64,000 bases of DNA from an uncultured Clostridia bacterium (lineage in GTDB: Bacteria; Bacillota; Clostridia; Christensenellales; Borkfalkiaceae). This document shows positions 1-48,318 of the stretch, piece after piece; the first letter of the stretch is position 1; every line of letters starts with the position of its first letter. The stretch lies in contig CANQBG010000002.1 of assembly GCA_947588985.1 (NCBI GenBank), positions 1-64,000 of the forward strand. Direction: 5' to 3'. Both the position numbers and the translations under genes were made by a program. Under the pieces are notes generated by a model that ran no database searches, was not told the DNA's origin, and was given only the letters and a program-made list of their open reading frames with translations.

Positions 1-95
1 CCCCCATTTTGTCAAGCATTTGTGCGAACATTTTGAAAATTTCTTCCCACTTGTGAACAATTTTTTTCTTCCCCCCCCCTCCCACGGCATGAAAA
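1..95 (-). repeat. Truncated second copy of the pilin-gene promoter/upstream region (copy of about 1535-1630)
   Basis: cccccattttgtcaagcatttgtgcgaacattttgaaaatttcttcccacttgtgaacaattttttt is repeated at about 1535-1602; includes the -35 complement tgtcaa at 10-15 and the end of a C-run at the window edge. Confidence 0.85.
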
Positions 96-966: not shown

Positions 967-1494
967 TTAGCTTGCGGAGGGCTTTGTTGTAGTGACCTCA
1001 ACACCCTTTGCGGTAATCGTTACGTAGTAATTGCCCACTTTATACTCGACTTTACCGCTACCGACTTCGTAAGTATCCTCTTTTTCCGTAGCTGAAATTT
1101 TAATACCAACCCAATCACCTGAACCCGTTGTCTTAATGTCCTTTACTGTTATAAAATCTGCAAATATAGGGGCATCATCGGTTGTATCATTCTTATCGAT
1201 TTTAGCATTGGCAAGAGTTTCTGTCGGCCCTGTTCCTGTTGCGGGAATCTGTCTTGCACTAGAAGAAGAAGAAGAAGAATCCATCTGCTTATAACAATAC
1301 TCATCGAAGTTTCCCTGATAGAGCGCAAGGATCTCGGTTTTCAAGTTGGCAGCTTCTTGTTCGGCGGCGGACTTGTTGGCGTTACCGATCACGGTGGTGA
1401 AGGTGGGGATGAGGACGGCGGCCAAGATCGCGATGACCGCGATGACGATGACCAGTTCGACGAGCGTAAAGCCCTTCTTGTTTTGCTTTTTCAT
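967..1494 (-). CDS. Type IV pilin-like (prepilin N-terminal) protein
   Basis: MKKQNKKGFTLVELVIVIAVIAILAAVLIPTFTTVI prepilin peptidase site and hydrophobic helix; in-frame TCT (Ser) microsatellite SSSSSSS. Confidence 0.88.
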   Translation of the reverse strand: MKKQNKKGFTLVELVIVIAVIAILAAVLIPTFTTVIGNANKSAAEQEAANLKTEILALYQGNFDEYCYKQMDSSSSSSSARQIPATGTGPTETLANAKIDKNDTTDDAPIFADFITVKDIKTTGSGDWVGIKISATEKEDTYEVGSGKVEYKVGNYYVTITAKGVEVTTTKPSAS

Positions 1495-1520: not shown

Positions 1521-1549
1521 ATGATAGCACCCCCCCCCCATTTTGTCAA
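1521..1549 (-). promoter_or_regulatory. Promoter of the pilin-like gene with G10 tract in the spacer
   Basis: Minus strand: TTGACA-AAAT-GGGGGGGGGG-TGC-TATCAT; 17-bp spacer, extended -10 TGC. Confidence 0.8.
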
Positions 1550-2955: not shown

Positions 2956-4746
2956 TTACTGATGGAACTCGTCGCCGCCCGCGGCGCCGCCGTCGGGACC
3001 CTGCGGGCCCGCGCCCTGCTGATAGAGCTTGGCGATGACGGGCTGGATCTTCTTGGAGAGTTCCTCGAAGGCCGCGTTGTATTTCTCCTCGTCGTCGCAC
3101 TCGAGCTCTTTTTTCGCCTCGTCCACGGCGGACTGCAACGTCGCTTTATCCTCTGCGGAGAGCTTCTCCTCGCCGTCTTTGATGGTCTGCTCCACGGAGA
3201 AGATGAGCCCGTCGAGCTTGTTCCTCGCCTCGACTTTGGCCTTGCGCTTCTTGTCCTCCTCGGCGTACTGCTCGGCCTCCTTCACGGCCTTGTTGATCTC
3301 GTCCTCGGAGAGGTTGGTAGACGACGTGATGGTGATATCGGTGGACTTGCCCGTGCCGAGGTCCTTGGCCTCCACGTGCACGATGCCGTTGGCGTCTACA
3401 TCGAAGGTGACTTCGATCTGCGGGATGCCGCGGGGCGCGGGAGCGATGCCCGTGAGGGTGAAGCGGCCCATCGTCTTGTTGTCGCGGCAGAAGTCGCGCT
3501 CGCCCTGCAGGATGTGGATCTCCACGCTCGTCTGATTGTCGGCCGCCGTAGAGAACACCTGCGACTTCTTGACGGGGATGGTCGTGTTCCTGTCGATGAG
3601 GCGGGTGAACACGCCGCCCAACGTCTCGATGCCGAGGGAGAGGGGCATGACGTCGAGAAGGAGGACGTCTTTCACTTCGCCCGTTAAAACGCCGCCCTGA
3701 ATGGCCGCGCCGATGGCGACGCATTCATCGGGATTGATGCCCTTGAAGGGCTCCTTGCCCGTGATCTCCTTGACTTTGGCGACGACGGCGGGGACGCGCG
3801 TCGAGCCGCCGACCAAAATGACCTTGTCGATGTCGCTATACGAGAGGCCGGCGTCCTTCATGGCGAGGCGCATGGGCTCGGCCGTCTTTTCGACGAGGTC
3901 GGAGATGAGCGTCTCGAACTTCTGACGGGTGATCTCGAGCTCGAGGTGGGCGGGACCGGCGTCCGTCATCGAGATGAAGGGCAGAGAGACGGAGGTGGAA
4001 GTCATGCCCGAGAGCTCGATCTTGGCCTTCTCGGCGGCCTCCTTGAGGCGCTGCATGGCCATCTTATCGCGGGTGAGATCGACGCCGTGGCTCTTCTTGA
4101 ATTCGCCCACCATGTAGTCCATGAGGCGCTTATCGAAGTCGTCGCCGCCGAGCATGTTGTTGCCGTTGGTCGCAAGGACTTCAAAGACGCCGTCGGAGAT
4201 CTCGAGGATGGAGACGTCGAAGGTGCCGCCGCCGAGGTCGTAGATCATGACCTTGCTGTTCTCCTTCTCCTTGTCGAGGCCGTAGGAGAGGGCCGCCGCC
4301 GTGGGCTCGTTGATGATGCGCAGCACGTTGAGGCCGGCGATCTTGCCCGCGTCTTTGGTGGCCTGCCGCTGGGCGTCGGTGAAGTATGCGGGGCAGGTGA
4401 TGACGGCGTCCGTCACCTTTCCGCCGAGATAGGCCTCGGCGTCCTGCTTGAGTTTGGTGAGGATCATGGCAGAGATCTCCTGCGGGGAGTAGCTCTTGTC
4501 GTCGATCTTGACCTTGTGGTCGGAACCCATCTTGCGCTTGATGGAGATGACCGTCTTATCGGGGTTAGCGACGGCCTGCCGCTTGGCTACCTGCCCGACG
4601 ACGCGGGAGCCGTCTTTTTGGAATGCGACGACGGAGGGAGTCGTTCTCGCGCCCTCCGCGTTTGCGATGACGACGGGCTCGCCGCCCTCCATCACCGCCA
4701 CACAGGAATTGGTTGTGCCTAAATCAATGCCGATTACTTTAGCCAT
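2956..4746 (-). CDS. dnaK: Chaperone protein DnaK (Hsp70); ORF track start trimmed to [22 protein letters not shown]
   Basis: Classic Hsp70 sequence; ATG complement cat at 4744-4746 with RBS upstream. Confidence 0.97.
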
Positions 4747-19851: not shown

Positions 19852-22800
19852 TTATGCCTCCGGCTGTTCGGCCGGCTCCTCCGCCGCTTGGTCGTGCGCC
19901 TCCGCCTCGGCCTCCTCGGCTTCCCGCACGGCCTCGGCCTGTTCCCACTCCCACTTCTCGCGGTCCGCCCGCTTGAGGCGAACGGCCACGAGGATGGTGA
20001 TGAGCCCCGCGACATCGGCAATTCCGAGCGCGATGCACAGCCCGAAGGCGTGGGTGGGAATGAGCACCGTGAGCAGTGCGCCGAGCGGCGCCACGGAGAG
20101 GAACATCGTCTTATCGCTCTCCTCCTTCTTCAAGAGAATGCTGAGGAGGATCACGATCTCCGAAACGAGGATGCAGGCGAGCAGGATGACGAGCCACCAC
20201 AGGTTGATCTCATGCTCGGCAAGGAGCACAAATTCGGAGAAGTGCGCCGTCTTGAATTCGAGATACTTGCCCTCGACGATCTTGGTCTCATAGACTTCCA
20301 CCGTGTCCTCCCCGATGTAGACGAGCTGCAGCCCGTGCATGGAGCGGAGCGACTGCGGAAGCAGCATGCTCACGAGGTACATGCCCTCGAATTCGGTGAT
20401 CTTGATGACGTCGTTCTTGAGCAGGTAGATATCGACGGTGGCGACGACTTCCTTCTCGTAGGCATACGATCTCACCGTTTCGTCGATGAGGTCGGAACCC
20501 TCCGCCGCGACGATCTTGCTACTTGCGATGGCGCTATGGATGGCCTCGCGGTCCTCCTCCGTCTCCTCGATGATGAGGCGGATGCCGCCGGGCATGGTGG
20601 CCTCGTTTTCTACGCGGCCCCAGAGGTTGCCGTCGTAATCATCGTATTCGGCCTCGCCCTCGCCCGCGAAGGTGCCGTCTGGGTTGATCTTCCCGGCCGA
20701 GGCACGGATGACGGGGACTTCGTCGAGCGCCTCGAGGAACTCTTCAAAGAGGTCGTCGAGAGCCTTTTCCGCCGCGTCGTCCGAGGAGGAAGGGATCTCC
20801 TTCGCCCGTTCGGAATATTCCGCGGCGACGTCCATGAGCTGCGCTTTGAGCGGCTCGTTGTATTGTCCGTTGTTGCCGCGCGCCTCGGCTTCCTGCGCCG
20901 CTTGGTTGGCAAACCGCTGCAATCTCTGCGCGTGCTCCGTCTCCTGCTTGGCGGCGGCATAGGCGTCGTCGAGCCGTTTCTCCTCCTCTTCGAGGTGCTT
21001 TGCGCGCGTCTCATCCGCGGTGTGCGGCGTGTATTCGAGGTCTTTGAGTTCGTTTACTTTCTCGGCGTGCGTCTCCTTTACGAATTCGCCGTCGTGCTCG
21101 TGAAGAAGCGTATCCGCCTCCTCTAAGAGGTTGGCCTTGGTCTCTTCGAAGGCGGCCCGCGCCTCACGGTCGGAGAGCTCGCCCTTCGTGCCCGAATAGC
21201 CGCTCTGCTGCGACTTGCCGTCGAGGTACTCCTTCACGCCGCTCGGGAGCTTATCAAACGCCGTCTCCGTCTCTTTGAGGGCGGAAGCGTCCCTTCTGTC
21301 CACGTCGTCGAAGGGCTTGGAGAGGGCCTCGTTTCCATCGAGGAAGCGCTCGCCCTCGATGGCGTCTTGGGCCTCCTCAAGGAGCGCGTCTGCCTCCTCC
21401 GCCGTCGCCGCGTCGCGGATCTCGTCGAGATAACCGCCCGCACCCGTGATCGCGTCCTGCACGGACTGCACGTCGTCCTTCACCTCTTCTTCGAGATAGG
21501 ACTCCGCATAGGAACGGGAGATGTCGCGCTTGCCTTCTTCGGCCGCGGCATGGGCCTCTTCGGCCGTCTCCGCCTCGTCGATCGCGGCATACGCGCCGTC
21601 TGCGATGTCGTCGAGGTTTGCAAGCTCCGCCGCGGGAACGCCCGCCGCCGCGCCCGCCTCTTTCTTCTCTTCGAGATGATCGAGGACGGCGAGTTTCTCT
21701 TCGATCCGGTCTTTGAGCTGCTCCGTGACGTCGTCGAGTTCTTCGTCGGAAGCCGCTTCGATCGCGGCGTCGGCGGCCTCTTGGAACTTCTGCACGGTCT
21801 CCTCCGCGCCGGCGGGAGCCTGCTCGAGGAGTTCCGCGATCTCCGCCTTCTTGGCGTCTTTGGCCTTTTGGACGGCGTCCAACGCGCGCTGCGCTTCGAG
21901 ATCGGCTTTCACCGATTTGACAACTTCGGAGATATCGGCAAGGTCTTGCTTTTCGTCCGCCGCCGTTACGGCCGCTTCGACCGCCTTCTTCGCCTCATCG
22001 ACGATGGCCTCTGCGGCAGCGGAATCGCCATCTTGCTTCATGCTGTCGAGGAGCTCGTTTACGGCTTCCTTTACGGCCGCATTCCGCCCCGCATTGTCCT
22101 TCGCGGCGTCGATTGCATTCAACACGGCCTTCTCGCCGCCCGCGGGCTCTACGCCGAGCACCGCCTTGCTGTCGAGATAATCCTTCTTGGCGATGCCCGC
22201 CGCTTCGATCTCGCCCATCTCTGCGATCGCGACATCCGCGATCTCGGCGGGTTCATCGGCGGTCTGCGCCGCGTCGATTTCATCTTCTGCCCGTTGTTTG
22301 GCGGCTTCGAGTGCGGTCTTGCTGCTCGCGTCCATGTTCGTGCCGCTTTCCGCGAGGATCTCGTCGTAGGCTTCTTGCACCGCCTGCTTGGCGGCGTCTT
22401 TGGCCTTTTGGACGGCGTCCAACGCGCGCTGCGCTTCGAGATCGGCCTTCACCGATTTGACAACTTCGGAGATATCGGCAAGGTCTTGCTTTTCGTCCGC
22501 CGCCGTTACGGCCGCTTCGACCGCCTTCTTCGCCTCATCGACGATGGCCTTTGCGGCAGCGGAATCGCCACCTTGCTTCATGCTGTCGAGGAGCTCGTTT
22601 ACGGCTTCCTTTACGGCCGCATTCCGCTCCGCATTGCCCTTCGCGGCGTCGATCTTATCCAACACGGCCTTCTCCCCGCCCGCGGGCTCTACGCCGAGCA
22701 CCGCTTTACTGTCGAGGTAATCCTTCTTGGCGATGCCCGCCGCTTCGATCTCGCCCATCTTCGCGATCGCGGCATCCGCGATCTCGGCGGGTTCATCGGC

Positions 22801-25800
22801 GGTCTGCGCCGCGTCGATTTCATCTTCTGCCCGTTGTTTGGCGGCATCGAGCGCGGTCTTGCTGCTGCCGTCCATGTTCGTGCCGCTCGCCTCGAGGATC
22901 TCGTCGTAGGCTTCTTGCACCGCCTGCTTGGCATCCTCTTTGGCCTTCTGTAAGGCGTCTGCGGCGCGCTGCGCCTCGAGCGCGGCCTTGGCGGCTTTGA
23001 CGATCTCCGAAACGTCCGCGATATTCCCCGCAGTCGTGGCGGCGGCAACGGCTTTATCGACCGCTGTCTTGGCGTCGGTGATGACTTTCTGCGCGGCTTG
23101 AGAATCGCCGGTCTCTCCCATCTCATCGAGGAAATCTTTCGCGGCGTTGCCGAGGGCCTCGTTGATGTTATCGAGGGACTGCTCTTTTGCAATGCTATTA
23201 GCGAATTTCTCTTTGGCTTCCGCGAAGCCGGGGTCAGCTTCGCCCTTTGCGGCGACGTACGTCTCTGCATACTCCTTCGCCGCGAGATCGCGGTAGCGAA
23301 TGGCGGGAAGTTCGGCTTGGGCGCCCTTGACGATCTTGTCGAGCTCGGCCTCGGCGGCTTCGAGAGCGTCGGCCCACGACTTGCCCGCTTCCTTATTGAG
23401 TGTTACGTCGTCAACTGCGTCCAGCGCGGCGGCCTTGGCTTTTTCGAGGGCGGCCTTGGCGGGATCCGTCATGCCACTCTGCGAAACGGCGGCATGGGCG
23501 GCTTCGATCTTTTCTTTCGCGTCTTGCTTGGCGGCGGCGAGATCTGCGATCGCGTCGTCGTGCGCTTTCGCCTCCTCGAGCGCGGCCTTGACGCCCTTCA
23601 TCTCGTCCGCAAGCTCTTCCGGGATCCCCGTGTAGTTCTCCACCGTGCCCTTCCCATCGGCAACGGCCGCGGCAAGGTTGCTTCCCTCCGCGGGAGCCGC
23701 GCCATCTACCTTGGCGGCTTCGTCGATGAGATCTTTGAGCGCTTCTTTGAAGATACCTTCTGCTTCCGCTTCCGTCGTCGCGGGTTCGAGCTGTTTTGCA
23801 AATTCTTCCGTGACGGTCGTATCCGGCGAGCTATCCGTCAAATTCTCATACGCCTTTTCGTAGGCCGCTTCAAGGTCTGCCTTGGCGTCATCGAGACGCT
23901 GTTTTTCGAGCGCGGCCTTGGCGGCTTCGACGATCTCCGAAACGTCCGCGATATTTCCCGCGCCATTGGCAGTTTCAACGGCTTTCTCGACTTCGCCCTG
24001 CGCGTCGGTGATGACTTTCTGCGCGGCAGTGGAATCGCCGGCCTCTCCCATCTCGTCGAGGAATTCTTTCGCGGCGTTGCCGAGGGCATTGTTGAGCTCT
24101 TCGAGCTTGGTGGCCTTTTCGATGGCGGCGAGCGCCTCATCGCCCTCTCCGGGGGTTGCGGTTTCGCCGTTTGCAGCCTTGTAGAGTTCGTCGTATTCCT
24201 GCTTTGCCTGTTCGCGGAGGCGTTCGAATGCGACGTCCGCTCTCGCCTTTTCGGCAATTTCTTTCAGCGTATCCTTCGAAACGACGCCCTTGTCTTGGGA
24301 CGCGCCGCCGTTCGCCGCCGCAACGGCCTTTTGGGCCTCTTCCTTGGCGCCATTCGCGACTTGTTTCACGGATTCGACGTCGTCACGGACGTATTCCTCG
24401 AGAAGGTCCGCGATTGCCTGTTGCAGGGCGGCGTTGAGGTCTACACTGTTGCTGTTTTTCGCGATTTCCGCGAGGGCGGCTGAAACGGCAGGGCCCTCGG
24501 CACCAAGCGTTGTGCCGTGGAGGCCATTGTAGAAGGCGAGGTAGGCATCCTGCGCCGCCTGCTGCTCTTTTGCGACCTGCGCGGCATAGCCGGTAGTTTC
24601 ATTCACGAAGCCCGCAATCGCGTTCTCCAAATCGGAGATCCCGGTGCGCGGATCGGCAGCGGCCTCATTCACCGCTTCGATTGCGTCGTTTACGATATCC
24701 TGCACGGCCTTGGAATCCTTATCGGCCGTCAAATGACCTTCGAGGAGCCCGACGACGGCGTCCTTCAAGCGCTTATCGGCCTCTTGGGCAGATGTTGCCT
24801 TCCCGATGTTCTCAAGATTTTTGTCCGCCGCTTCGGGGGCCTTCCCATAGATATCCGTGTAGCGCGCCGTGTATTCTTTGACTGCGGCATCGACGCTACT
24901 CTGTACTTTTTCCCCTGCGATGGTCCCAATGCCGGCTTCCACGATTCCGCTGAGGGTGGGAACGAAGCGGGTGGCCGCGACGTCTGCGGCCGTGTAGGCC
25001 GTATAGACCTCGTCTTTGACGTCTGCAACGGCCTTCTGCACCGCCTGATCATCGACCACGTTGCCCGATTCGTCCTTCGCGAGGAAGGTGTTTTCGAGCA
25101 GATTGGCCGTGGCGAGATAGAGCGCGGCGTTGAGGTCCTTCGTCGTCTCGGCGGCCTTAAAGGTCTCGGCTATTTCTTGATAATACGGCGTACCCTGCGC
25201 TACTTCAACGCCCGTGGCGGCCTTGTAGGAAGCGAAGTAATCCGCTATGGCCGCTTCGAGCTCTTTCTCGCGCTGCGCCGCGAACCGATCCCCGAAGGAG
25301 CCGGTTGCTCCCTCGTTCTCAAACGCCTCGAACTCGGCGGAGAAGTCCGCGATCTCGCCCTCGGCGGGCGTGACGCCGGCGAGCGCCTGTTGGGCTGCGG
25401 CGATGAGATCCTGCAACGCTTTGGACTGCTCGCTCTCACCGTTCTCCTCGGCGCGGAGGCCGCGAAGAAGGTCGGAAATAGCATCGCTTAAAGCTTCGTT
25501 GAGCTCTTCCGCGGTACCCATGTCTGCGGTGGCAGCTTCGAAAGCGGTAATTTCCGCCTCGGAGGCCGCTTTGCCCATGATCGCCTTGTAAGACTCTGCA
25601 TACTCCTCTTTGGCGATGGCTTTGAGGACGTTTTGCTTGAGCGCTTGGGCCTTGGCCTGCTCTTGGGCGAGCTCGCCCTGCATGCGGGTGAGGGCCTGTG
25701 CCCACGTCTCGTAGACCGCCCCATCCTCCAAGGAGGCGGGCTCGAGCTTGAGGCCGTTTACTTCCGATTGAAGCGCGGTCTGCGCTTCGGAAAGGGACGC

Positions 25801-28800
25801 GGCGTCCGCTTCGGAGACGCGCTTGCCGTCCTTTTCTGCATTATAGGCCTCTTCGACTTCCGCGAGGACTTCTTCCTTTGCGCGGAGGAATTCGAAGTTT
25901 TCCTTTGCGCCGTCTACGGCTGCGGCAACTTGGGCGATGCCGCGCGCATTGGGCTCGGCGTTCTCTACGGCTTTCGCGAGCGCGGAGGCGTATTCCTTTG
26001 CGAGACTGCCCGCTTCGTCGCCTTCGGTGGCCGTCTCGAGCAGACCATTTACGCCTTCTTTGAGCACTTCGTTGAGCGCATCCGCGGTACCCATGTCCGA
26101 ACCCGTGAGCTTTTGAAGCGTTGCGTCGTCCGGATCTGCTTCCGCGCCCGTGATGGCCTTGTGGGCCGCCTTGTATTGCGCGACGGCGTCGTCTTTCAGA
26201 CGTTGCGCCTCGATCTCGGCCTTCACGCCCTTCACGGCCGCGGCGAGAGTTTCCGCCTCAATGAGGGCGTCTCCCGCTTTCTCGATGGCCGTCTTGACTT
26301 CCGCTTTGGCGGCTTTTACGATGTTGGAAACGCTGCCTACGGGATCGCTGAGCTCCTCGAGCGTGAGGAGGGAATCGAGAAGATCTGCTATGCCGCTCTG
26401 CAGTGTTTTGTTGAGCTCCGCGACGCTCTTTGCGCCGTCGAGCGCGTCCACGGCCCTTTGGGCAACGGCGACGAGCGAGGAGAGCTCCGGATCTTCCGCG
26501 TAGGGCGTAAGATCCAATTGCGCCGTCTCCTTGCCTTCCGTCTTGGCGAAGGTGAGCTCGGGCTTGGGGTCGATTGCCGCGTTGAAGGCGGCGACGTACG
26601 CCCTCTTGGCGTCTCCGATTTGGTCGGCAAGGGTGAAGGCCGCCGTGGCCTCCGCCGCAATCTTCGCTTTGGCCTCTTCGCTGAGTTTGCCATCCGTCTT
26701 ATCCGCGTCTTGATACTCGCGCTTGGCGAGGGCGACATATTGCTTGGCGAGCTCGTCCTTCACGAGATCCGCGTTGAAGGAATCCTCCCAATTGGGCTCG
26801 GTCTGCCCTTTCACAAACGCCTCATAGGCCTTTTGCAGGGCGTCGACGGCGTCCTGAGCGAGCTCGAAGTTTTGGAGCATGCGGTCGGCCTCGTCCATCG
26901 TCCGGGCGGCGGCAATGCCCTCCACGCATTGATCGCAGAAGGGCCCGAATTGCTCCCTCTTGTTCCCCTCTGCGTCATCTTTCAGGAACGCATCTACCTT
27001 CTCCTGCATCTCCTTTTGGGCGAGCATGAGGTAGGCGGTGAGCGGCTCGGGAAGCGGCGTCTTGCTGTCGGCCTCGCCCTGCGCATAGCCATTCTCATAG
27101 AGCAGGTCTGCGAGCTTTTGCAACACGGCGAACTCGAGCTTCTCGTAGCTCGTCTCCGCCGCTTTCAAGTTCCCTTTGAGCGTGGCGAGGGCTTGCGCTC
27201 CTTCCACGTTATCGACGTCGGAATATTTCTCTCCGGTGGCGTAGTTGACCGCCTGTTTGAGATAGTCCCCGTTCTCCTCGAACCATTCCTCGGCGCGGCG
27301 AAGGTCGTAGGCCGCCTCGAGCGCGTCTTTCTTGTCCTTCTCGAAGCCGCAGACGGCCGTCTTGCGGGCCTCTTCGAGGAAGTTTTGAAGTTCCTCCGTG
27401 GCCGTTGCATTCAACGCAGTTTCGAGGTCGGCATAGGCCTCCATTACTTTTGCGAGCTCCGTGGAAGGCACTTTCTTATTCTTCAGCTCTGTGCCGTTGA
27501 AGTGCTCGGCATAGGCTCTCTCGAAATTCTCCCGCGCGGTCTGCTGTTCCGCTGTAAGGGTGAGGTAGCTATGGATGCACGAGACGGGCAGACCGGGGAA
27601 TACGGCCGTTTCGCCCGCGGGCGTGCGCGCATACAGTGTGTAGACGGTATCGGGCGCGAGGCCGGTGAAGCCGAGCGTGCCGTCTTTGGCGGTGAGCCAA
27701 ACTTCCTTGCCGTCCTCATCTGTGAGGAACTTGCCGTCCGCCGTCTGAAGAGTATATTCGAGGCCTTGGTGCTTTTCGTCTACGCCGAGCGTGAGCGAGG
27801 TGCTCGTCACGTCCTCGAGCGTGAATTGCGCGCCGGTGAGGTCGGGGTCCTCCGCACGGGAGCCGACCTTGACCTGCTTTTCTTCGCCATCCTTATCTTG
27901 GAATGTGGCGTTGCCCTGATCGTCGATCTTTATGTCGGCAGGGATCCCCTCCCCACCCCATGTCTGAGGTTCGCCGTCATTCGGGACATATTTCCAACCT
28001 TCGGGAAGTTTGAGATTCCCTTCGTCCACGACGACGACTTCGAGCGGAAGATCCTTCACCGTCACATCGGCGGCGTCGTCCTCCCAATAGAAGAGGGCGA
28101 GTTCGGCGGTCTGGTTGGTCGCGGTGAGGCCTTCCACGTCGAATGTAAAGGTTCCGTCGGCATTGAGCCGGATTTCGCCCGCCGCGGGAGACGCGGAGAC
28201 GGTGTAAACTTTCTCCCCCACCGTGAAGGTGGCCTTGGTGCAGTTGGGCACGTCGAGCACGCCCGAAACGGTGAGCTTGTTCGCTTCCGTCTGAGAGACC
28301 TCGAGGGAATAGCTGCTCTGCGCGAGGACGGTCATCTCCCCTTCCGGATAGCGGAAGTAGAAGGTGTTCGCAAAGCCTGCGGAAGCCGTTTCCTTTATGT
28401 TGAGCTTATCGAGGAGAGCTTTGGTCTCTGCAACGGTGCCCTTTGCCTTGGCGATCGCGCCGTCGGAGGCGGCTTGGCCTTCTTCGGTCTTTTCGAAGGC
28501 GACGGAGAGGCTGTCTCCCGTAAAGCCCGTCACGTCTACATAGGTCTCGTAATAGCGGTCGGAGGCGGGATAGTTGCCGGCGGCGTCGGGCGAGGCCTTG
28601 CCGTCTACGGCGTAGCAGGAGGCGTCGAGATACACATTGCCCGAGATCGCGGGGTTGCCGCTTACGGCGAGTTTGCCCGCGCCGTTGCCCTCGATATAGG
28701 GCTTGGTGGTCGCGCCCGCGTAGTCCTCCGCGCTGTATTGGTTATAGAGGTAGAGCGCGTTTTGCGAAGGCTCTACCGCGGACACGGTACCCCCCGAGAC

Positions 28801-31800
28801 GGTGAGGCTCGCGCCTTCCTCCACGGAGAGCACGCCCAAATCGTGTAGCGAAACGTTGCCCGTGATTTCGGCATTTTCGGATACGGTGGTCTCCGCGCCG
28901 CCATAGATAGACTGCACCGCGGCGCCCTTCATCTGCGAGACGTTGCCCGTGATTTTGCCGCCCGTGATGTTGACCTGCGGGCCGTGGCCACCGTTTTGCG
29001 CGGGATCGACGTAGTTGGGGTTGGGGGTGCCGTTGGTATTCTCGGGCTTATTGACGTTCATGATCGCGCCGCCCTCGCGGGAGTAGCAATCCTGAATGAG
29101 GCCGCCCGTCATGTTGAGCGTGCCCTGCCCTTCGTTGCGGACGCCGCCGCCATAGTTCTGCGAGCCGAAGCCCACCCCGGGCATGGCCCAGTTGTTGTCG
29201 TTATTCTGAATGGTGGCCCCTTCCCCAATATTGAGGGTGCCTTGGTTGACGATGACGGGAGCATGCGCCACGACGCCCGTGTTGTTGGTCTCCACGGTGC
29301 CTGCGCCGCCATTCCCGTCGTCTGCGATTTTGACCTTGCCCGCCTGCGCCGTCCAATCGGAATATGCGGGGGTCTCGGGTTTGTCCTTATTCCACACGGC
29401 GCCGCCGTCGAGGATGACGTTTGTGAGGGTGAGGGAAGCGCCCTTCTCCACCTTGATCATCTCATCGGTGAGGGACGTCCCACGCTTCAGCGTGAAGGGA
29501 TCGACTTCCTCGTCGTACTCCGCGTTGCCGCCCGACTCGGAAACGGTGCCCGTGATGCTGCCGAGGGTGATGTGCGCGCCCGCGGGGATCGTGAGTTTCT
29601 CCAAGATCTCGAGGTCGCCGCCGTATATCTGGCCGCCCTCCGTCTGCGTATTGCGATATTGGTAGAGCGCGACCTTCCCGGGATCCTCGCTCGTGGAGGT
29701 TGCGGCAACCGCGTCGATGGCCGCCTGCAAGCTCGCGCAGGGCACCCATTTCGTGCCATCGTAATATGCCGCAACGTTATCCGACGTCGGCCTAAGATGC
29801 AGCGAGCCGTCCGCCGCGTTGGGATCAAAGGTGTAGCCCGCGTTCTTGACGCGCATGAATCCCTTCATGTCGGCGGCAGAAAGCGCGTTACCTTCACTCG
29901 TAATGTACTTCGAAAAATCCTCGACTTGGTTTGCGGGGTCCTCGAATTCGACGATGATCGTCTTTCCCGCTTCGGGAGCTTCGCCCGAGAGGACGATGCT
30001 CGCGTTCTTCTCATCGCTCGCGGTGTAGCCGAGCATGATGCCGTCGTTGATGTCGTTTGCCGCCGTGGGGAGGGTAAGCGTGGAGCCGTCCGCCACATAG
30101 ACGCCGTTGGCCTTTGCGGCCGAGTTGTTTTCAATATATGTACTTTCGTGGATCCCGGCCGTGGTGCCGCTGCCGAGATAGATCGCGCCGCCCGTGGCCG
30201 CCGAGCAGCCCGTCGCCGTGATCGCGAGGTTGGCAGCCTCTACCGTTGCTTCCTCCGCATAGATCGCGCCGCCGTTTTCGGCCGCCATACAGCCGTTGAA
30301 GGTGACGGAGGCCCCTTCCTCCGCTGCCGTGAGGACCGCGCCGCCCGTGAGGGAGATGGCGCCGCCGTTTTGCGCTTTCGCGGCGGAGGCCCCGCAGGAG
30401 GCGAAGGTGTTCTCGCCCGCAAGGGTGATTTTCGCGCCCGCGCCATTTGCCGCGACGGCGGAGTTGCCGAAGCTCTCCACCGAGACATTTTCTAAGGTGA
30501 GCGCGCCGCCCGTCAAGGAGACAAGGGAGGTGGGATTTTGAGGAACGCCCTTCGCGGCGACAGCTTGCAATGTGAGGACTCCGCCGCCCTGCACCTCGAA
30601 CATGCTCCCCGCGGAAGCCGTCAGTTTGAGCTCGGCGGGCATATCCGCCTTGTCGCCCTGCGTGATCGTGATATCTTTTGAAACGGCGATCGGGGAGCCG
30701 ACTTCCACGGTGCCGTTGACGTAGATGGGGCCCGCGGCGGTGCCGGCTTCCACGGCCTTTACCGCCTCTTCGAGGGTGGGGTACGTTGTTTTCGCATCGC
30801 CGGTCCCCGTGTAAATTTCGGAGGAGAGGCTGTTGGTGACGCGGAACGACCACGTCTTGCCGTTGAGGTTGGTGCCGCCCGCATAGGAGATCTTTACGGT
30901 GGCGGTGCCCGTCTCCGAGCCGCCGGTGAGCTTCAGCGCGCTCAAATCGCCCGAGCCCGTCACGGAGACGGCCTTGCTCCCCGAAGGCTCCACGGTGATC
31001 GTAAACTTCCCGCCGTCCTTTGTGGGATCGAAGGGGGATGTGAACTTCAAAAGCGTGTCCGCGGAAATCTCTTGCCCCGGCGTCGTCTCTACGGTCTGCT
31101 GATAGGTTTCGGCCACGGGGTCCGCTTTGTCGATGTACCATGTGACCATTTTGTAATCGCCGCCGCCCAAAAGCGCGACAAGGGTATACGTCCCGGCGTT
31201 CGTCTTGTTCGTGTCGCCTGCAAAAATCACGCTCGAACCGCCCAACGTCTTGGCGAGCTTGACCCACGTATTTTCCGTTGTGAAGTTGTGCTCTTGTCCG
31301 GTGTAGGGCAAGTGATTGCCGTCGATCCCGGCCATGGCCAATGCGGATTGGGGCGTAAGTCCCGAGCTGCCGCCGCCCGTGCCGCCACTTCCGCCGGTGC
31401 CGCCGCCCGTGCTCATGTTTATGTTCAGACAGTCTGACGAGGAGGAATGCCAACTCACCGCACCGTCCTTAGTAAAGTAAGCCTTGCTCCACTCTTTCAG
31501 CTGCGCCGAGGTGGTTGATACGGCATTGTACGCCTTCATGTAGATATAGCCGTCGTTATCTACATAGAGATTTTGATATCTGGCGCTATTGACGACGATC
31601 CTGCCATCCGTAATATTGGTCAACAACGTGATCGCCGTAGACGAAGAACTGCACTGCATGATGGCGCCCGACGATACCGCCGTCCCATACGGAGCGTATA
31701 CGACCATATAGCCGCCATTCTTTACTTTATAGCCGAGCATATTCGCCGTCCCGCCCGATGACCATTGGTCAAGGATGACGGTGCCGCCATACTCGTTGAC

Positions 31801-32046
31801 GCGGTAGATCGACAGAGACTTTCCCCTCGGATCTGTCAAGTACACCGTCGCCTCTTCGTAGTACGGCGTGAAAAACTGCGCCTTCTGCGCAGGCGTCAAG
31901 ACGGTCTCCGCGGCTTCCGAAGAAACGCGCGGCTCGGCGTCGTGAAAGCCGACTGCGTGGATCAGCGCGAACGCCGAAACAAGCATGAACAGCGCAACGA
32001 GCACGTACATGACCGCATTTCGCATGAAATTTACTCGCTTTCTCAT
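19852..32046 (-). CDS. Giant (4064 aa) repeat-containing surface protein with C-terminal TM segments
   Basis: N-terminal signal/TM; beta-helix-like region (LTGGALTLENVSVESFGNSAVAANGAG..., MTGGLIQDCYSREGGAIMN); many Ala/Glu-rich helical repeats; C-terminal hydrophobic helices (INLWWLVILLACILVSEIVILLSILL). Confidence 0.9.
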   Translation of the reverse strand: MRKRVNFMRNAVMYVLVALFMLVSAFALIHAVGFHDAEPRVSSEAAETVLTPAQKAQFFTPYYEEATVYLTDPRGKSLSIYRVNEYGGTVILDQWSSGGTANMLGYKVKNGGYMVVYAPYGTAVSSGAIMQCSSSSTAITLLTNITDGRIVVNSARYQNLYVDNDGYIYMKAYNAVSTTSAQLKEWSKAYFTKDGAVSWHSSSSDCLNINMSTGGGTGGSGGTGGGSSGLTPQSALAMAGIDGNHLPYTGQEHNFTTENTWVKLAKTLGGSSVIFAGDTNKTNAGTYTLVALLGGGDYKMVTWYIDKADPVAETYQQTVETTPGQEISADTLLKFTSPFDPTKDGGKFTITVEPSGSKAVSVTGSGDLSALKLTGGSETGTATVKISYAGGTNLNGKTWSFRVTNSLSSEIYTGTGDAKTTYPTLEEAVKAVEAGTAAGPIYVNGTVEVGSPIAVSKDITITQGDKADMPAELKLTASAGSMFEVQGGGVLTLQAVAAKGVPQNPTSLVSLTGGALTLENVSVESFGNSAVAANGAGAKITLAGENTFASCGASAAKAQNGGAISLTGGAVLTAAEEGASVTFNGCMAAENGGAIYAEEATVEAANLAITATGCSAATGGAIYLGSGTTAGIHESTYIENNSAAKANGVYVADGSTLTLPTAANDINDGIMLGYTASDEKNASIVLSGEAPEAGKTIIVEFEDPANQVEDFSKYITSEGNALSAADMKGFMRVKNAGYTFDPNAADGSLHLRPTSDNVAAYYDGTKWVPCASLQAAIDAVAATSTSEDPGKVALYQYRNTQTEGGQIYGGDLEILEKLTIPAGAHITLGSITGTVSESGGNAEYDEEVDPFTLKRGTSLTDEMIKVEKGASLTLTNVILDGGAVWNKDKPETPAYSDWTAQAGKVKIADDGNGGAGTVETNNTGVVAHAPVIVNQGTLNIGEGATIQNNDNNWAMPGVGFGSQNYGGGVRNEGQGTLNMTGGLIQDCYSREGGAIMNVNKPENTNGTPNPNYVDPAQNGGHGPQVNITGGKITGNVSQMKGAAVQSIYGGAETTVSENAEITGNVSLHDLGVLSVEEGASLTVSGGTVSAVEPSQNALYLYNQYSAEDYAGATTKPYIEGNGAGKLAVSGNPAISGNVYLDASCYAVDGKASPDAAGNYPASDRYYETYVDVTGFTGDSLSVAFEKTEEGQAASDGAIAKAKGTVAETKALLDKLNIKETASAGFANTFYFRYPEGEMTVLAQSSYSLEVSQTEANKLTVSGVLDVPNCTKATFTVGEKVYTVSASPAAGEIRLNADGTFTFDVEGLTATNQTAELALFYWEDDAADVTVKDLPLEVVVVDEGNLKLPEGWKYVPNDGEPQTWGGEGIPADIKIDDQGNATFQDKDGEEKQVKVGSRAEDPDLTGAQFTLEDVTSTSLTLGVDEKHQGLEYTLQTADGKFLTDEDGKEVWLTAKDGTLGFTGLAPDTVYTLYARTPAGETAVFPGLPVSCIHSYLTLTAEQQTARENFERAYAEHFNGTELKNKKVPSTELAKVMEAYADLETALNATATEELQNFLEEARKTAVCGFEKDKKDALEAAYDLRRAEEWFEENGDYLKQAVNYATGEKYSDVDNVEGAQALATLKGNLKAAETSYEKLEFAVLQKLADLLYENGYAQGEADSKTPLPEPLTAYLMLAQKEMQEKVDAFLKDDAEGNKREQFGPFCDQCVEGIAAARTMDEADRMLQNFELAQDAVDALQKAYEAFVKGQTEPNWEDSFNADLVKDELAKQYVALAKREYQDADKTDGKLSEEAKAKIAAEATAAFTLADQIGDAKRAYVAAFNAAIDPKPELTFAKTEGKETAQLDLTPYAEDPELSSLVAVAQRAVDALDGAKSVAELNKTLQSGIADLLDSLLTLEELSDPVGSVSNIVKAAKAEVKTAIEKAGDALIEAETLAAAVKGVKAEIEAQRLKDDAVAQYKAAHKAITGAEADPDDATLQKLTGSDMGTADALNEVLKEGVNGLLETATEGDEAGSLAKEYASALAKAVENAEPNARGIAQVAAAVDGAKENFEFLRAKEEVLAEVEEAYNAEKDGKRVSEADAASLSEAQTALQSEVNGLKLEPASLEDGAVYETWAQALTRMQGELAQEQAKAQALKQNVLKAIAKEEYAESYKAIMGKAASEAEITAFEAATADMGTAEELNEALSDAISDLLRGLRAEENGESEQSKALQDLIAAAQQALAGVTPAEGEIADFSAEFEAFENEGATGSFGDRFAAQREKELEAAIADYFASYKAATGVEVAQGTPYYQEIAETFKAAETTKDLNAALYLATANLLENTFLAKDESGNVVDDQAVQKAVADVKDEVYTAYTAADVAATRFVPTLSGIVEAGIGTIAGEKVQSSVDAAVKEYTARYTDIYGKAPEAADKNLENIGKATSAQEADKRLKDAVVGLLEGHLTADKDSKAVQDIVNDAIEAVNEAAADPRTGISDLENAIAGFVNETTGYAAQVAKEQQAAQDAYLAFYNGLHGTTLGAEGPAVSAALAEIAKNSNSVDLNAALQQAIADLLEEYVRDDVESVKQVANGAKEEAQKAVAAANGGASQDKGVVSKDTLKEIAEKARADVAFERLREQAKQEYDELYKAANGETATPGEGDEALAAIEKATKLEELNNALGNAAKEFLDEMGEAGDSTAAQKVITDAQGEVEKAVETANGAGNIADVSEIVEAAKAALEKQRLDDAKADLEAAYEKAYENLTDSSPDTTVTEEFAKQLEPATTEAEAEGIFKEALKDLIDEAAKVDGAAPAEGSNLAAAVADGKGTVENYTGIPEELADEMKGVKAALEEAKAHDDAIADLAAAKQDAKEKIEAAHAAVSQSGMTDPAKAALEKAKAAALDAVDDVTLNKEAGKSWADALEAAEAELDKIVKGAQAELPAIRYRDLAAKEYAETYVAAKGEADPGFAEAKEKFANSIAKEQSLDNINEALGNAAKDFLDEMGETGDSQAAQKVITDAKTAVDKAVAAATTAGNIADVSEIVKAAKAALEAQRAADALQKAKEDAKQAVQEAYDEILEASGTNMDGSSKTALDAAKQRAEDEIDAAQTADEPAEIADAAIAKMGEIEAAGIAKKDYLDSKAVLGVEPAGGEKAVLDKIDAAKGNAERNAAVKEAVNELLDSMKQGGDSAAAKAIVDEAKKAVEAAVTAADEKQDLADISEVVKSVKADLEAQRALDAVQKAKDAAKQAVQEAYDEILAESGTNMDASSKTALEAAKQRAEDEIDAAQTADEPAEIADVAIAEMGEIEAAGIAKKDYLDSKAVLGVEPAGGEKAVLNAIDAAKDNAGRNAAVKEAVNELLDSMKQDGDSAAAEAIVDEAKKAVEAAVTAADEKQDLADISEVVKSVKADLEAQRALDAVQKAKDAKKAEIAELLEQAPAGAEETVQKFQEAADAAIEAASDEELDDVTEQLKDRIEEKLAVLDHLEEKKEAGAAAGVPAAELANLDDIADGAYAAIDEAETAEEAHAAAEEGKRDISRSYAESYLEEEVKDDVQSVQDAITGAGGYLDEIRDAATAEEADALLEEAQDAIEGERFLDGNEALSKPFDDVDRRDASALKETETAFDKLPSGVKEYLDGKSQQSGYSGTKGELSDREARAAFEETKANLLEEADTLLHEHDGEFVKETHAEKVNELKDLEYTPHTADETRAKHLEEEEKRLDDAYAAAKQETEHAQRLQRFANQAAQEAEARGNNGQYNEPLKAQLMDVAAEYSERAKEIPSSSDDAAEKALDDLFEEFLEALDEVPVIRASAGKINPDGTFAGEGEAEYDDYDGNLWGRVENEATMPGGIRLIIEETEEDREAIHSAIASSKIVAAEGSDLIDETVRSYAYEKEVVATVDIYLLKNDVIKITEFEGMYLVSMLLPQSLRSMHGLQLVYIGEDTVEVYETKIVEGKYLEFKTAHFSEFVLLAEHEINLWWLVILLACILVSEIVILLSILLKKEESDKTMFLSVAPLGALLTVLIPTHAFGLCIALGIADVAGLITILVAVRLKRADREKWEWEQAEAVREAEEAEAEAHDQAAEEPAEQPEA
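21852..22931 (-). repeat. Tandem duplication of a 540-bp (180-aa) unit within the giant gene
   Basis: ggcgtctttggccttttggacggcgtccaacgcgcgctgcgcttcgagatcgg... recurs at an exact 540-bp offset and stays near-identical across the unit. Confidence 0.9.
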
Positions 32047-45924: not shown

Positions 45925-47973
45925 TTATGCCCCCTGTTTTTCAAGCATGATGATAATTTCCTGTGTCGGCTCATACATTCCCATCGACACATTCCCGCCG
46001 AAATACATATGATAGGATTCCATTAAATAAAAGGTATTGTCTTGCAAAGCTGTATTCTTCAGAGAAATTCCATCGACAAGTTCCAATCCCGAGCACACGC
46101 TGAGCGCGTCAAACGCATTTCTTACCTGTTCTTTCCAATCCTTATCGACCCACTTGTAGACATTATTCGTTTTTGTGCTATCACGGGCTTCATTATAAAG
46201 CGGCGTGGTATCTTTATCCGAAATTCCATACCAATAGATATTTCCATAATAAATGTTCCAATACCAAAGTACGATTTCCGGTTCGGAATAATGATAAGCC
46301 GAAGCATTGCCGTCCACAAAGTTCGACCCTTGATTAGAGCTTTCCCAAACTCCGTTTTGGATATTTAAGATGTCGCTCCAAGCAATGTCATCCATGGTAT
46401 CCGCATGATATCGTTTTTTCAGCCAATCCGCAAGAGTTTGCCCTTCCGGCTTAGAAAGTTGTTCCATATAGGCATTATAACTTGCTTGACTCCACTCCCT
46501 ATCGGTAGTGCCCAGAACTTCATGGGCATAGGTCAGCGCGGTAACGCTACTCGTCATGACAGGATAATAATGTTCGTCGAATCCGTAGATTTCCTTGATT
46601 TTTTCGAGGATCCCTTCCGTGTTTCCGCTCTCGACTGCCGTTTTCAGCATGGTAATCGCGCCCAATACATTCATATCAAACGTCGTTTTGACGTTGACAG
46701 CCGCATACAAATTCTTTCCGCCGCCGAACTTCACTTTATTATTTACCCCATCTCCCGGCATCGTGGAAGAGGGCCTCTTTAATTCGAATTGCAAGGAAAC
46801 CCTATCCGTTAAATAGTTCTCGTCGTCGGGCAACTGAAATTGCCAACTCAAATCGTATTTATCTGTTCCGGTTTGACTGGACTCGGTTTCCACCACCAAT
46901 TTGCCGTATTCATAGGAGTGGCCGGCCACCGTGCCGGTGTAGAGGCGGTTGTTTTTGTAATAATACCCGTTCGCAACGCCGCCCGCCGTTCCGCCAAGCG
47001 GCTCGAAGCCCTCCGGCGCCTTTGCATTGCAATAGATGCAATAATACCCTTCGTCCTTGCGATATTCAAAAGTACAGGCAAGGCCCGTCGCCGGGGCGCC
47101 GTTGTCGGGGCAGGCAGAGTCCGTGCACCGCCTATTATGCGTGCCGTTGTTTTGAGGCGTATATTCAAAGACGTGTCTGTGCGTGCTGACGGGCTGGTCG
47201 TAGTCGCAATAGACGCAGCGGCCCGCGGCATCGAAGGTGCAGTCCTCCTGGGTGGGCTGATTGCAGATCTTGCAGACCTTGGTGTGCGTGCCGTCCCCGT
47301 TGGCGGTATACGACCCCACCCCATAGGCATGCGCGCAGGGATCGGTGTCGCTGTTCGTCTCCTTCTTCCAGCCGCACTTACTGCATGCGCCGTCCGCCCC
47401 GTCGGTATCGTGCGGGGCGTCCATGACGATGACCTCATGGCATTTGCCGCAGATGACGAGGTGGAACTCCGAGCCGCCCGTCTCGAGCGCGATGGGGCGA
47501 TAGGTGTAGCCGTAGCCCACGAGGTGCAGGCAGGCCTCCGTGGTGGGCGCGAGGCTGAACCACGTTAAGGCGGCCATCTCATATTTTGCCGCGAGGTCGG
47601 CGGGATAGACGATGGAGACGGGATTTTTCCCGTTCATCTCCACGAGGACCACGCGGTTGACGGACTGCTCCCCGCTCTTCTGGATCCAATAGAAGGCATA
47701 CCCGGAGGAAGCCGTATCGACGGGGGCGTTGAGGCCCGCGCTCCGCAGGATGGTTTCCGCACCGGCAAGGCCGTCGGGGACGTTCCCTGCGACCTCTTCG
47801 GCCGTGAGGGCCACATTCATGTTGCGCACCGTCTGCTGGTCTGCCGACATGTTCGCCTTTTGGATCACGCTCGTGAACGTCGGGATGAGCACGGCCGCCA
47901 AAATCGCAATGACCGCGATCACGATGACGAGCTCAACGAGCGTGAATCCGCGGCGCCGTTTGCTTTGTTTCAT
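45925..47973 (-). CDS. Large (682 aa) type IV pilin-like protein with Cys/His-rich module
   Basis: MKQSKRRRGFTLVELVIVIAVIAILAAVLIPTFTSVI; repeated CxxC motifs (ICGKCH, CSKCGW, CKICN, CVYCD, CIYCN). Confidence 0.9.
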   Translation of the reverse strand: MKQSKRRRGFTLVELVIVIAVIAILAAVLIPTFTSVIQKANMSADQQTVRNMNVALTAEEVAGNVPDGLAGAETILRSAGLNAPVDTASSGYAFYWIQKSGEQSVNRVVLVEMNGKNPVSIVYPADLAAKYEMAALTWFSLAPTTEACLHLVGYGYTYRPIALETGGSEFHLVICGKCHEVIVMDAPHDTDGADGACSKCGWKKETNSDTDPCAHAYGVGSYTANGDGTHTKVCKICNQPTQEDCTFDAAGRCVYCDYDQPVSTHRHVFEYTPQNNGTHNRRCTDSACPDNGAPATGLACTFEYRKDEGYYCIYCNAKAPEGFEPLGGTAGGVANGYYYKNNRLYTGTVAGHSYEYGKLVVETESSQTGTDKYDLSWQFQLPDDENYLTDRVSLQFELKRPSSTMPGDGVNNKVKFGGGKNLYAAVNVKTTFDMNVLGAITMLKTAVESGNTEGILEKIKEIYGFDEHYYPVMTSSVTALTYAHEVLGTTDREWSQASYNAYMEQLSKPEGQTLADWLKKRYHADTMDDIAWSDILNIQNGVWESSNQGSNFVDGNASAYHYSEPEIVLWYWNIYYGNIYWYGISDKDTTPLYNEARDSTKTNNVYKWVDKDWKEQVRNAFDALSVCSGLELVDGISLKNTALQDNTFYLMESYHMYFGGNVSMGMYEPTQEIIIMLEKQGA

Positions 47974-48060
47974 ATCGCATTCTCCTTTTGATTTTTTTCC
48001 GCGGCCCGAACTTCTGTCGAATACCCGAATGTTACCGTTTGGGCCGGTTTTTGTGTTCCT

Positions 48061-48088
48061 ATTATAGCACCCCCCCCCGGTCTGTCAA
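48061..48088 (-). promoter_or_regulatory. Promoter of the large pilin-like gene with G9 tract in spacer
   Basis: Minus strand: TTGACA-GACC-GGGGGGGGG-TGC-TATAAT, spacer 16. Confidence 0.85.
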
Positions 48089-48318
48089 GTATTTGATAGG
48101 ATTTTTTGAAAAATTTTTGGGGGACGCGAAAATTTTTTTGGGAGAACGCGAGACGGGACGAACGCCGGAAACAGGCGGAAAGCGGCGACGGAGGGAAAAC
48201 AGAGGGCGCGAAAGACCCCGCGGAAGGCCGCGGGGTGCAATCGGGAATGCGCGATCGGAAAACGAGCGCTGTGGGGTGTGCGAATGAGAAAGATGGGAAG
48301 GCGAGGGAAGCGCCCTTT

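Follow-up and report, generated by a model that had tools for sequence, protein, structure and literature searches.

Poly-G tracts in promoter spacers of type IV prepilin and lipoprotein genes point to a probable phase-variation regulon in a genus of uncultured Clostridia

What is a run of nine G doing between the -35 and -10 elements of an otherwise consensus promoter? The question is raised by a locus on the minus strand of the window (the whole 64-kb stretch of DNA analysed here, taken from the beginning of contig C2), where the promoter of a gene for a 682-aa protein reads TTGACA-GACC-GGGGGGGGG-TGC-TATAAT. Direct reading of the sequence and a pattern search both place this promoter at 48061..48088: the -35 hexamer TTGACA (48088-48083) is followed by GACC (48082-48079), nine G (48078-48070), TGC (48069-48067) and the -10 hexamer TATAAT (48066-48061), such that nine bases of the 16-bp spacer are G. 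The G9 homopolymer (48070..48078, minus strand) is the proposed site of slippage. An A/T-rich stretch adjoins the -35 element on its upstream side (48089..48134, minus strand) and may function like an UP element; such a stretch is also present upstream of other poly-G promoters. Between the -10 element and the start codon lies an 87-nt leader (47974..48060, minus strand) with a Shine-Dalgarno sequence, AAGGAG, at 47982-47987. An Rfam search of the leaders found no family near threshold and no known riboswitch. The open reading frame (45925..47973, minus strand) begins with ATG at 47973, and the start of its product, MKQSKRRRGFTLVELVIVIAVIAILAAVLIPTF, is a Pfam N_methyl prepilin signal (PF07963, E 2.6e-8, above the cut-off). 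This N-terminus, GFTLVELVIVIAVIAILAAVLIPTF, has the class III signal G-F-T-L-V-E and the hydrophobic helix of a type IV prepilin, and is followed by a large, unclassified C-terminal part. Thus, the preliminary description of this promoter and its 16-bp spacer ahead of a prepilin-like gene is exact to the base.

The window contains a sister promoter, TTGACA-AAAT-G10-TGC-TATCAT, at 1521..1549 on the minus strand, with the G10 tract at 1530-1539 and a spacer of 17 bp. It precedes a gene for a 175-aa prepilin (967..1494, minus strand; PF07963, E 5.3e-9). The two promoters had been described as lying about 47 kb apart and as differing in tract and spacer (G10 and 17 bp against G9 and 16 bp); we measured a distance of 46.5 kb, and the lengths agree exactly. 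A third copy, which reads TTGACAAAATGGGGG, is cut by the contig end (1..15, minus strand), the contig stopping within the G-run. The last 51 nt at this contig end are identical to those that open contig C34, where two more prepilin genes follow, with G10 and G9 tracts in their promoters. Given this identity and the additional prepilins on C34, the two contigs are likely to be parts of a tandem prepilin array that was split by the assembler. Five copies of the poly-G promoter are found where contigs end (window 1-15 on the minus strand, C19:32, C29:15, C34:37 and C60:4305); the assembly breaks at these promoters because of repeats, tract polymorphism, or both.

We compared the frequency of such promoters with chance at several scales. 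The window has two matches to the poly-G promoter pattern, and 100 dinucleotide shuffles have none. Runs of seven G are as such no more frequent in the window than expected (16 overlapping matches versus 15.7); hence, it is their placement within promoters that is unusual. Across this genome (1.6 Mb, 83.5% complete), the pattern TTGACN5G6N0-12TATNAT matched 16 times, and the reversed pattern did not match at all. Fifteen of these matches have at least seven G. A sixteenth promoter with a tract of that length, TTGACAAACGCATAC-G10-TATAAT on contig C11, has a longer gap between -35 and G-run, and was found outside the pattern by searching for a G-run together with a generic promoter; this brings the total to 16. 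Such promoter spacers account for 15 of the 35 runs of eight or more G in this genome. Thus, homopolymers of about seven or more bases between recognisable -35 and -10 elements, in the right order and on the right strand, occur in excess over chance, and we rejected chance as their source because neither the shuffles nor the reversed-pattern controls yielded a match.

The same architecture extends across the genus, with 118 matches in 33 of 37 species genomes and none for the reversed control. A stricter pattern was matched in 23/37 genomes of the genus versus 3/398 other genomes of the phylum, with one match in each of the three (Fisher 1e-25). Among the matches listed from a scan of GTDB species are metagenome-assembled genomes (MAGs) of Bacilli, Faecalibacterium, Candidatus Ancillula and Selenomonadaceae, all of them gut-associated, and Treponema ruminis. 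The architecture is restricted to one genus and scattered gut lineages, and the habitat of the genus is presumably the gut. A phage-borne promoter was considered and rejected, since only three IMG/VR viral contigs match. The equivalent pattern with a run of C gave only 10 matches in 61 genomes, five of which are one orthologous site; set against the roughly 118 G-run promoters in 37 genomes, this is a genus-wide bias for G on the coding strand, a bias that slippage alone does not explain.

To each promoter we assigned the best open reading frame preceded by a Shine-Dalgarno sequence, and we sorted the encoded N-termini by a simple rule into those with a prepilin motif, a lipobox, or a signal or anchor helix. 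As controls, we processed ordinary TTGACA-N15-19-TATAAT promoters from this genome in the same manner. All 13 callable poly-G genes in this genome encode exported products: seven prepilins, five lipoproteins and one signal-peptide protein. (We counted L005 as a lipoprotein; the rule returned signal/anchor, but the lipobox IAACG is present.) Exported products were found for 64 of 87 poly-G genes in the sister species but for only 5 of 26 control promoters, an excess with p ~1e-6 for each of the two sets. When three big paralogue expansions were left out of the sister-species set, 41/64 products were still exported (p = 1.5e-4 versus controls); some sister-species downstream genes look cytosolic or encode ABC transporters. 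Hence, surface or exported factors make up 13/13 of the controlled genes here and 64/87 in the genus, against 5/26 of the controls. Pfam domains at poly-G genes comprise the N_methyl prepilin signal and, in lipoproteins, SdrD_B/SpaA domains, InlB-type B repeats and collagen repeats, which are typical of surface proteins and adhesins. The genome-wide search with a listing of downstream genes that had been proposed at the outset thus returned 16 promoters, no control matches and prepilins at 7/13 callable sites; a similar frequency at housekeeping genes, named in advance as evidence against a regulon, was not seen. The proposal of a pilin regulon holds as far as the regulon is concerned, but not in its specificity. 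A regulon of pilins only is rejected, because lipoproteins are prominent in this genome and dominant in the sister species.

This genome encodes 12 prepilins, seven of which have a poly-G promoter. Two of the genes, on contigs C52 and C65, lie near contig ends: C52 opens partway into a leader of the kind found downstream of the C15 and C19 poly-G promoters, and the 420 nt examined upstream of the C65 gene contain no poly-G tract. A similar leader of about 300 nt separates poly-G promoter and prepilin gene at L007 and L009 and is seen again at the start of C52 (L361); it had no match in an Rfam search. For the three prepilin genes on contig C31 we looked for a poly-G promoter and found none. 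This contig carries the type IV pilus core cluster (L360, G000 contig C31, 6639-13537), comprising PilB, PilC and the prepilin peptidase PilD, as identified by PF00437 (E 2e-131), PF00482, PF01478 and PF06750, together with minor prepilins. Since 7/12 prepilins have the poly-G architecture and none of these is on C31, the pilus machine is not under poly-G promoters, whereas most of the accessory pilin repertoire is. A divergently placed paralogue of the poly-G prepilins sits in the C31 cluster behind an ordinary promoter.

Spacer length sets the poly-G promoters apart from others in the same genome. Allowing spacers of 15-19 bp, we found 17 bp in 69 of 79 ordinary promoters, and 15 or 19 bp in not one of them. 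Of the 92 distinct poly-G promoters in the genus, just 11 are spaced at 17 bp (p ~1e-24); the range is 11-23 bp, with most at 15-16 and 19-20. In this genome the poly-G spacers are 16 bp (n=4), 17 bp (n=2), 19 bp (n=4) and 20 bp (n=6). Tracts are 7-13 G long across the genus and 7-10 G in this genome. Such scatter around 17 is the pattern expected of slipping promoters. If the assembled homopolymer lengths are right to one base, the shortage of 17-bp spacers further suggests that, in the majority that was assembled, expression from many poly-G loci is low. The position of the tract also varies: across the genus it begins 0-9 nt past the -35 element and stops 0-11 nt short of the -10 element, with a few G-runs overlapping the final base of the -35. 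The trinucleotide TGC often supplies the TGn motif of an extended -10. Therefore, the shared cassette proposed earlier (four nucleotides, G-run, TGC, -10) does not have a fixed layout. Because the G-run floats between -35 and -10, there is no fixed-phasing operator, and an operator with constant spacing is rejected genus-wide; yet two species hold a spacer of 15 bp.

Comparisons of tract length used one assembly per species. Near-identical copies differ in two cases: G10 versus G9 in this genome, with two differences in 140 flanking bases, and G8 versus G10 in a Faecalibacterium MAG, with one difference in 138. Homologous genes of sister species keep the poly-G promoter with tracts of different length (G7/G8, G11/G10 and G8/G12). 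Near-identical promoter pairs have the same length in 31/35 cases, some pairs being one locus fetched twice. Two large paralogue expansions are close to uniform, with G8 in 12 of 13 distinct copies in species G002 and G9 in 7/7 in species G030, and a 15-bp spacer in most copies of both. This constancy means that slippage may be slow at G8-G9, or that the copies may be recent. MutS is present in 37/37 genomes of the genus, which indicates that no loss of mismatch repair enhances slippage here, and we rejected such loss as a driver. Length variation is the weakest part of the case for slippage. From the spacer scatter and the few length differences between near-identical copies, we infer that the promoters slip independently of one another.

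We propose, with a probability of roughly 0.83, that the focal site belongs to a phase-variation regulon of pilins and surface lipoproteins that works by slippage in promoter spacers. Each promoter would be of the housekeeping type (TTGACA, often with an extended -10, TGnTATAAT) with a homopolymeric G-run in its spacer. Slipped-strand mispairing at replication would add or remove G, shifting the distance between -35 and -10 in 1-bp steps, and downstream transcription would move between a high state, with a spacer near 17 bp, and a low or off state. Thus, each gene is probably turned up or down randomly as a G is gained or lost during DNA copying. With each promoter slipping alone, cells would differ in the pilin-like proteins and surface lipoproteins that they display. 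Slippage in the living population, its effect on transcription and a selective reason for it, such as immune, phage or niche diversification, are what the promoter sequences lead us to infer.

Alternatively, the G-tract may mark a static promoter class, in which it serves as a fixed structural or regulatory element, either a binding site or a DNA shape, with a length that is invariant on biological time scales. The constancy of G8 (G002) and G9 (G030) with a 15-bp spacer over many paralogues would fit this explanation, as would the strict G-strand bias and the presence of mutS. However, both flanks of the G-run float, leaving no fixed phasing; tract and spacer lengths are scattered, in contrast to the 17 bp kept by ordinary promoters in this genome; near-identical copies differ by one G or two; and the constancy of the paralogues can equally mean recent duplication. 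We therefore regard a static class as unlikely, although it is the alternative to which we give most weight.

Still less probable is that a promoter cassette simply spread by duplication along with the prepilin and lipoprotein families, the G-run being an inherited passenger with no function. Several of the promoters do belong to near-identical paralogues, and the promoter stretch (query 188-287) resembles those of unrelated sister-species genes, the resemblance being partly one of low complexity. But within this genome and across 33 species the architecture recurs at genes that are unrelated and differ in their flanks, and a functionless G-run should have been lost or interrupted while TTGACA and TATAAT remained intact. 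We give almost no credence to accidental G-runs in promoters or to miscounted assemblies. Contigs do end at or near several poly-G promoters, and G counts in a metagenome assembly may be off by about one; nevertheless, the empty shuffled and reversed controls and the recurrence in dozens of independent assemblies argue against an artefact, and the result stands whatever the exact counts.

A literature search for promoter-spacer slippage returned, within Clostridia, only the inversion switches of C. difficile and, outside Clostridia, the G-tracts of Bifidobacterium. The vlp genes of Mycoplasma hyorhinis resemble the slipping promoters proposed here in forming a multigene surface lipoprotein family in which each gene has its own promoter-spacer homopolymer; they differ in that the tract is poly-A, the genes are one clustered family and the bacteria are wall-less. 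In Treponema pallidum, the poly-G of tp0126 lies between -35 and -10, with the best transcription at 17 bp, and that of tprL varies from G7 to G11 within isolates, G8 and G10 giving different GFP output in E. coli (PMC7864442). T. pallidum likewise has poly-G at surface-protein promoters at several loci per genome (tp0126, tprE/G/J, tprL; PMC7864442), but it is a spirochaete pathogen and the products are outer-membrane proteins rather than prepilins and lipoproteins; variation and expression have been measured there, whereas the Clostridia system is known here from sequence alone. In tprL and its paralogues, the tract is just upstream of the start site and not clearly in the spacer. Neisseria has promoter homopolymers of G in porA and of C in opc and fetA, which change the -35/-10 spacing or the -35 region, with an optimum of 17 for porA (PMC5320596, PMC7864442); these are few single loci with the tract on either strand, in contrast to the 16 or more loci per genome here, nearly always with G. 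In Bordetella, a C-stretch lies in the promoters of several pilus-subunit genes (fim2, fim3 and fimX), and a single base alters expression (PMC1891110). Bifidobacterium breve is, like the present genus, a gut commensal with G-tracts that govern pilus expression by replication slippage, and shifts in the mixture of lengths have been measured in mice (PMC9187656); the main tracts are coding and act on the reading frame, the pili are sortase pili, and the host belongs to the Actinomycetota, although the authors also mention promoter-spacer G-tracts (PMC9187656). By analogy, the system described here would work like tp0126, porA, fetA, fim and the B. breve tracts. Novel here are the lineage of the host, the scale (genus-wide, with no fewer than 16 loci in this genome), the set of targets (type IV pilins and lipoproteins) and a coding-strand tract that is nearly always G.

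Transcriptional phase variation by homopolymers has mainly been described for individual loci, or for small groups of them, in host-adapted pathogens. The putative regulon in the present case is large, belongs to an uncultured gut genus, is associated with type IV pilins and with lipoproteins resembling adhesins, and is predictable from sequence alone. If the tracts slip, archived metagenomic reads would reveal the strain- and host-dependent on/off state of each surface gene without culture. The pattern can be used to search gut Bacillota for phase-variable surface genes. We advance only tentatively, and with more doubt than conviction, a combinatorial surface display across the genus, in which 15 or more pilin and lipoprotein genes would each have an independent poly-G spacer switch; in the dominant cells, most of these switches would be set to a spacer other than the 17-bp optimum (low or off). 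Since MAGs of Faecalibacterium and Bacilli have similar promoters, gut Bacillota in general may diversify their surfaces by poly-G switching, with a preference for G over C on the coding strand that is yet to be explained. We also note a possible translational contingency locus on contig C4 (L371, near 3657-3665), namely a G9 run that is apparently within a coding region or on its border and is followed by TGCTATCC, and an open reading frame of 4064 aa in the window (19852-32046, minus strand).
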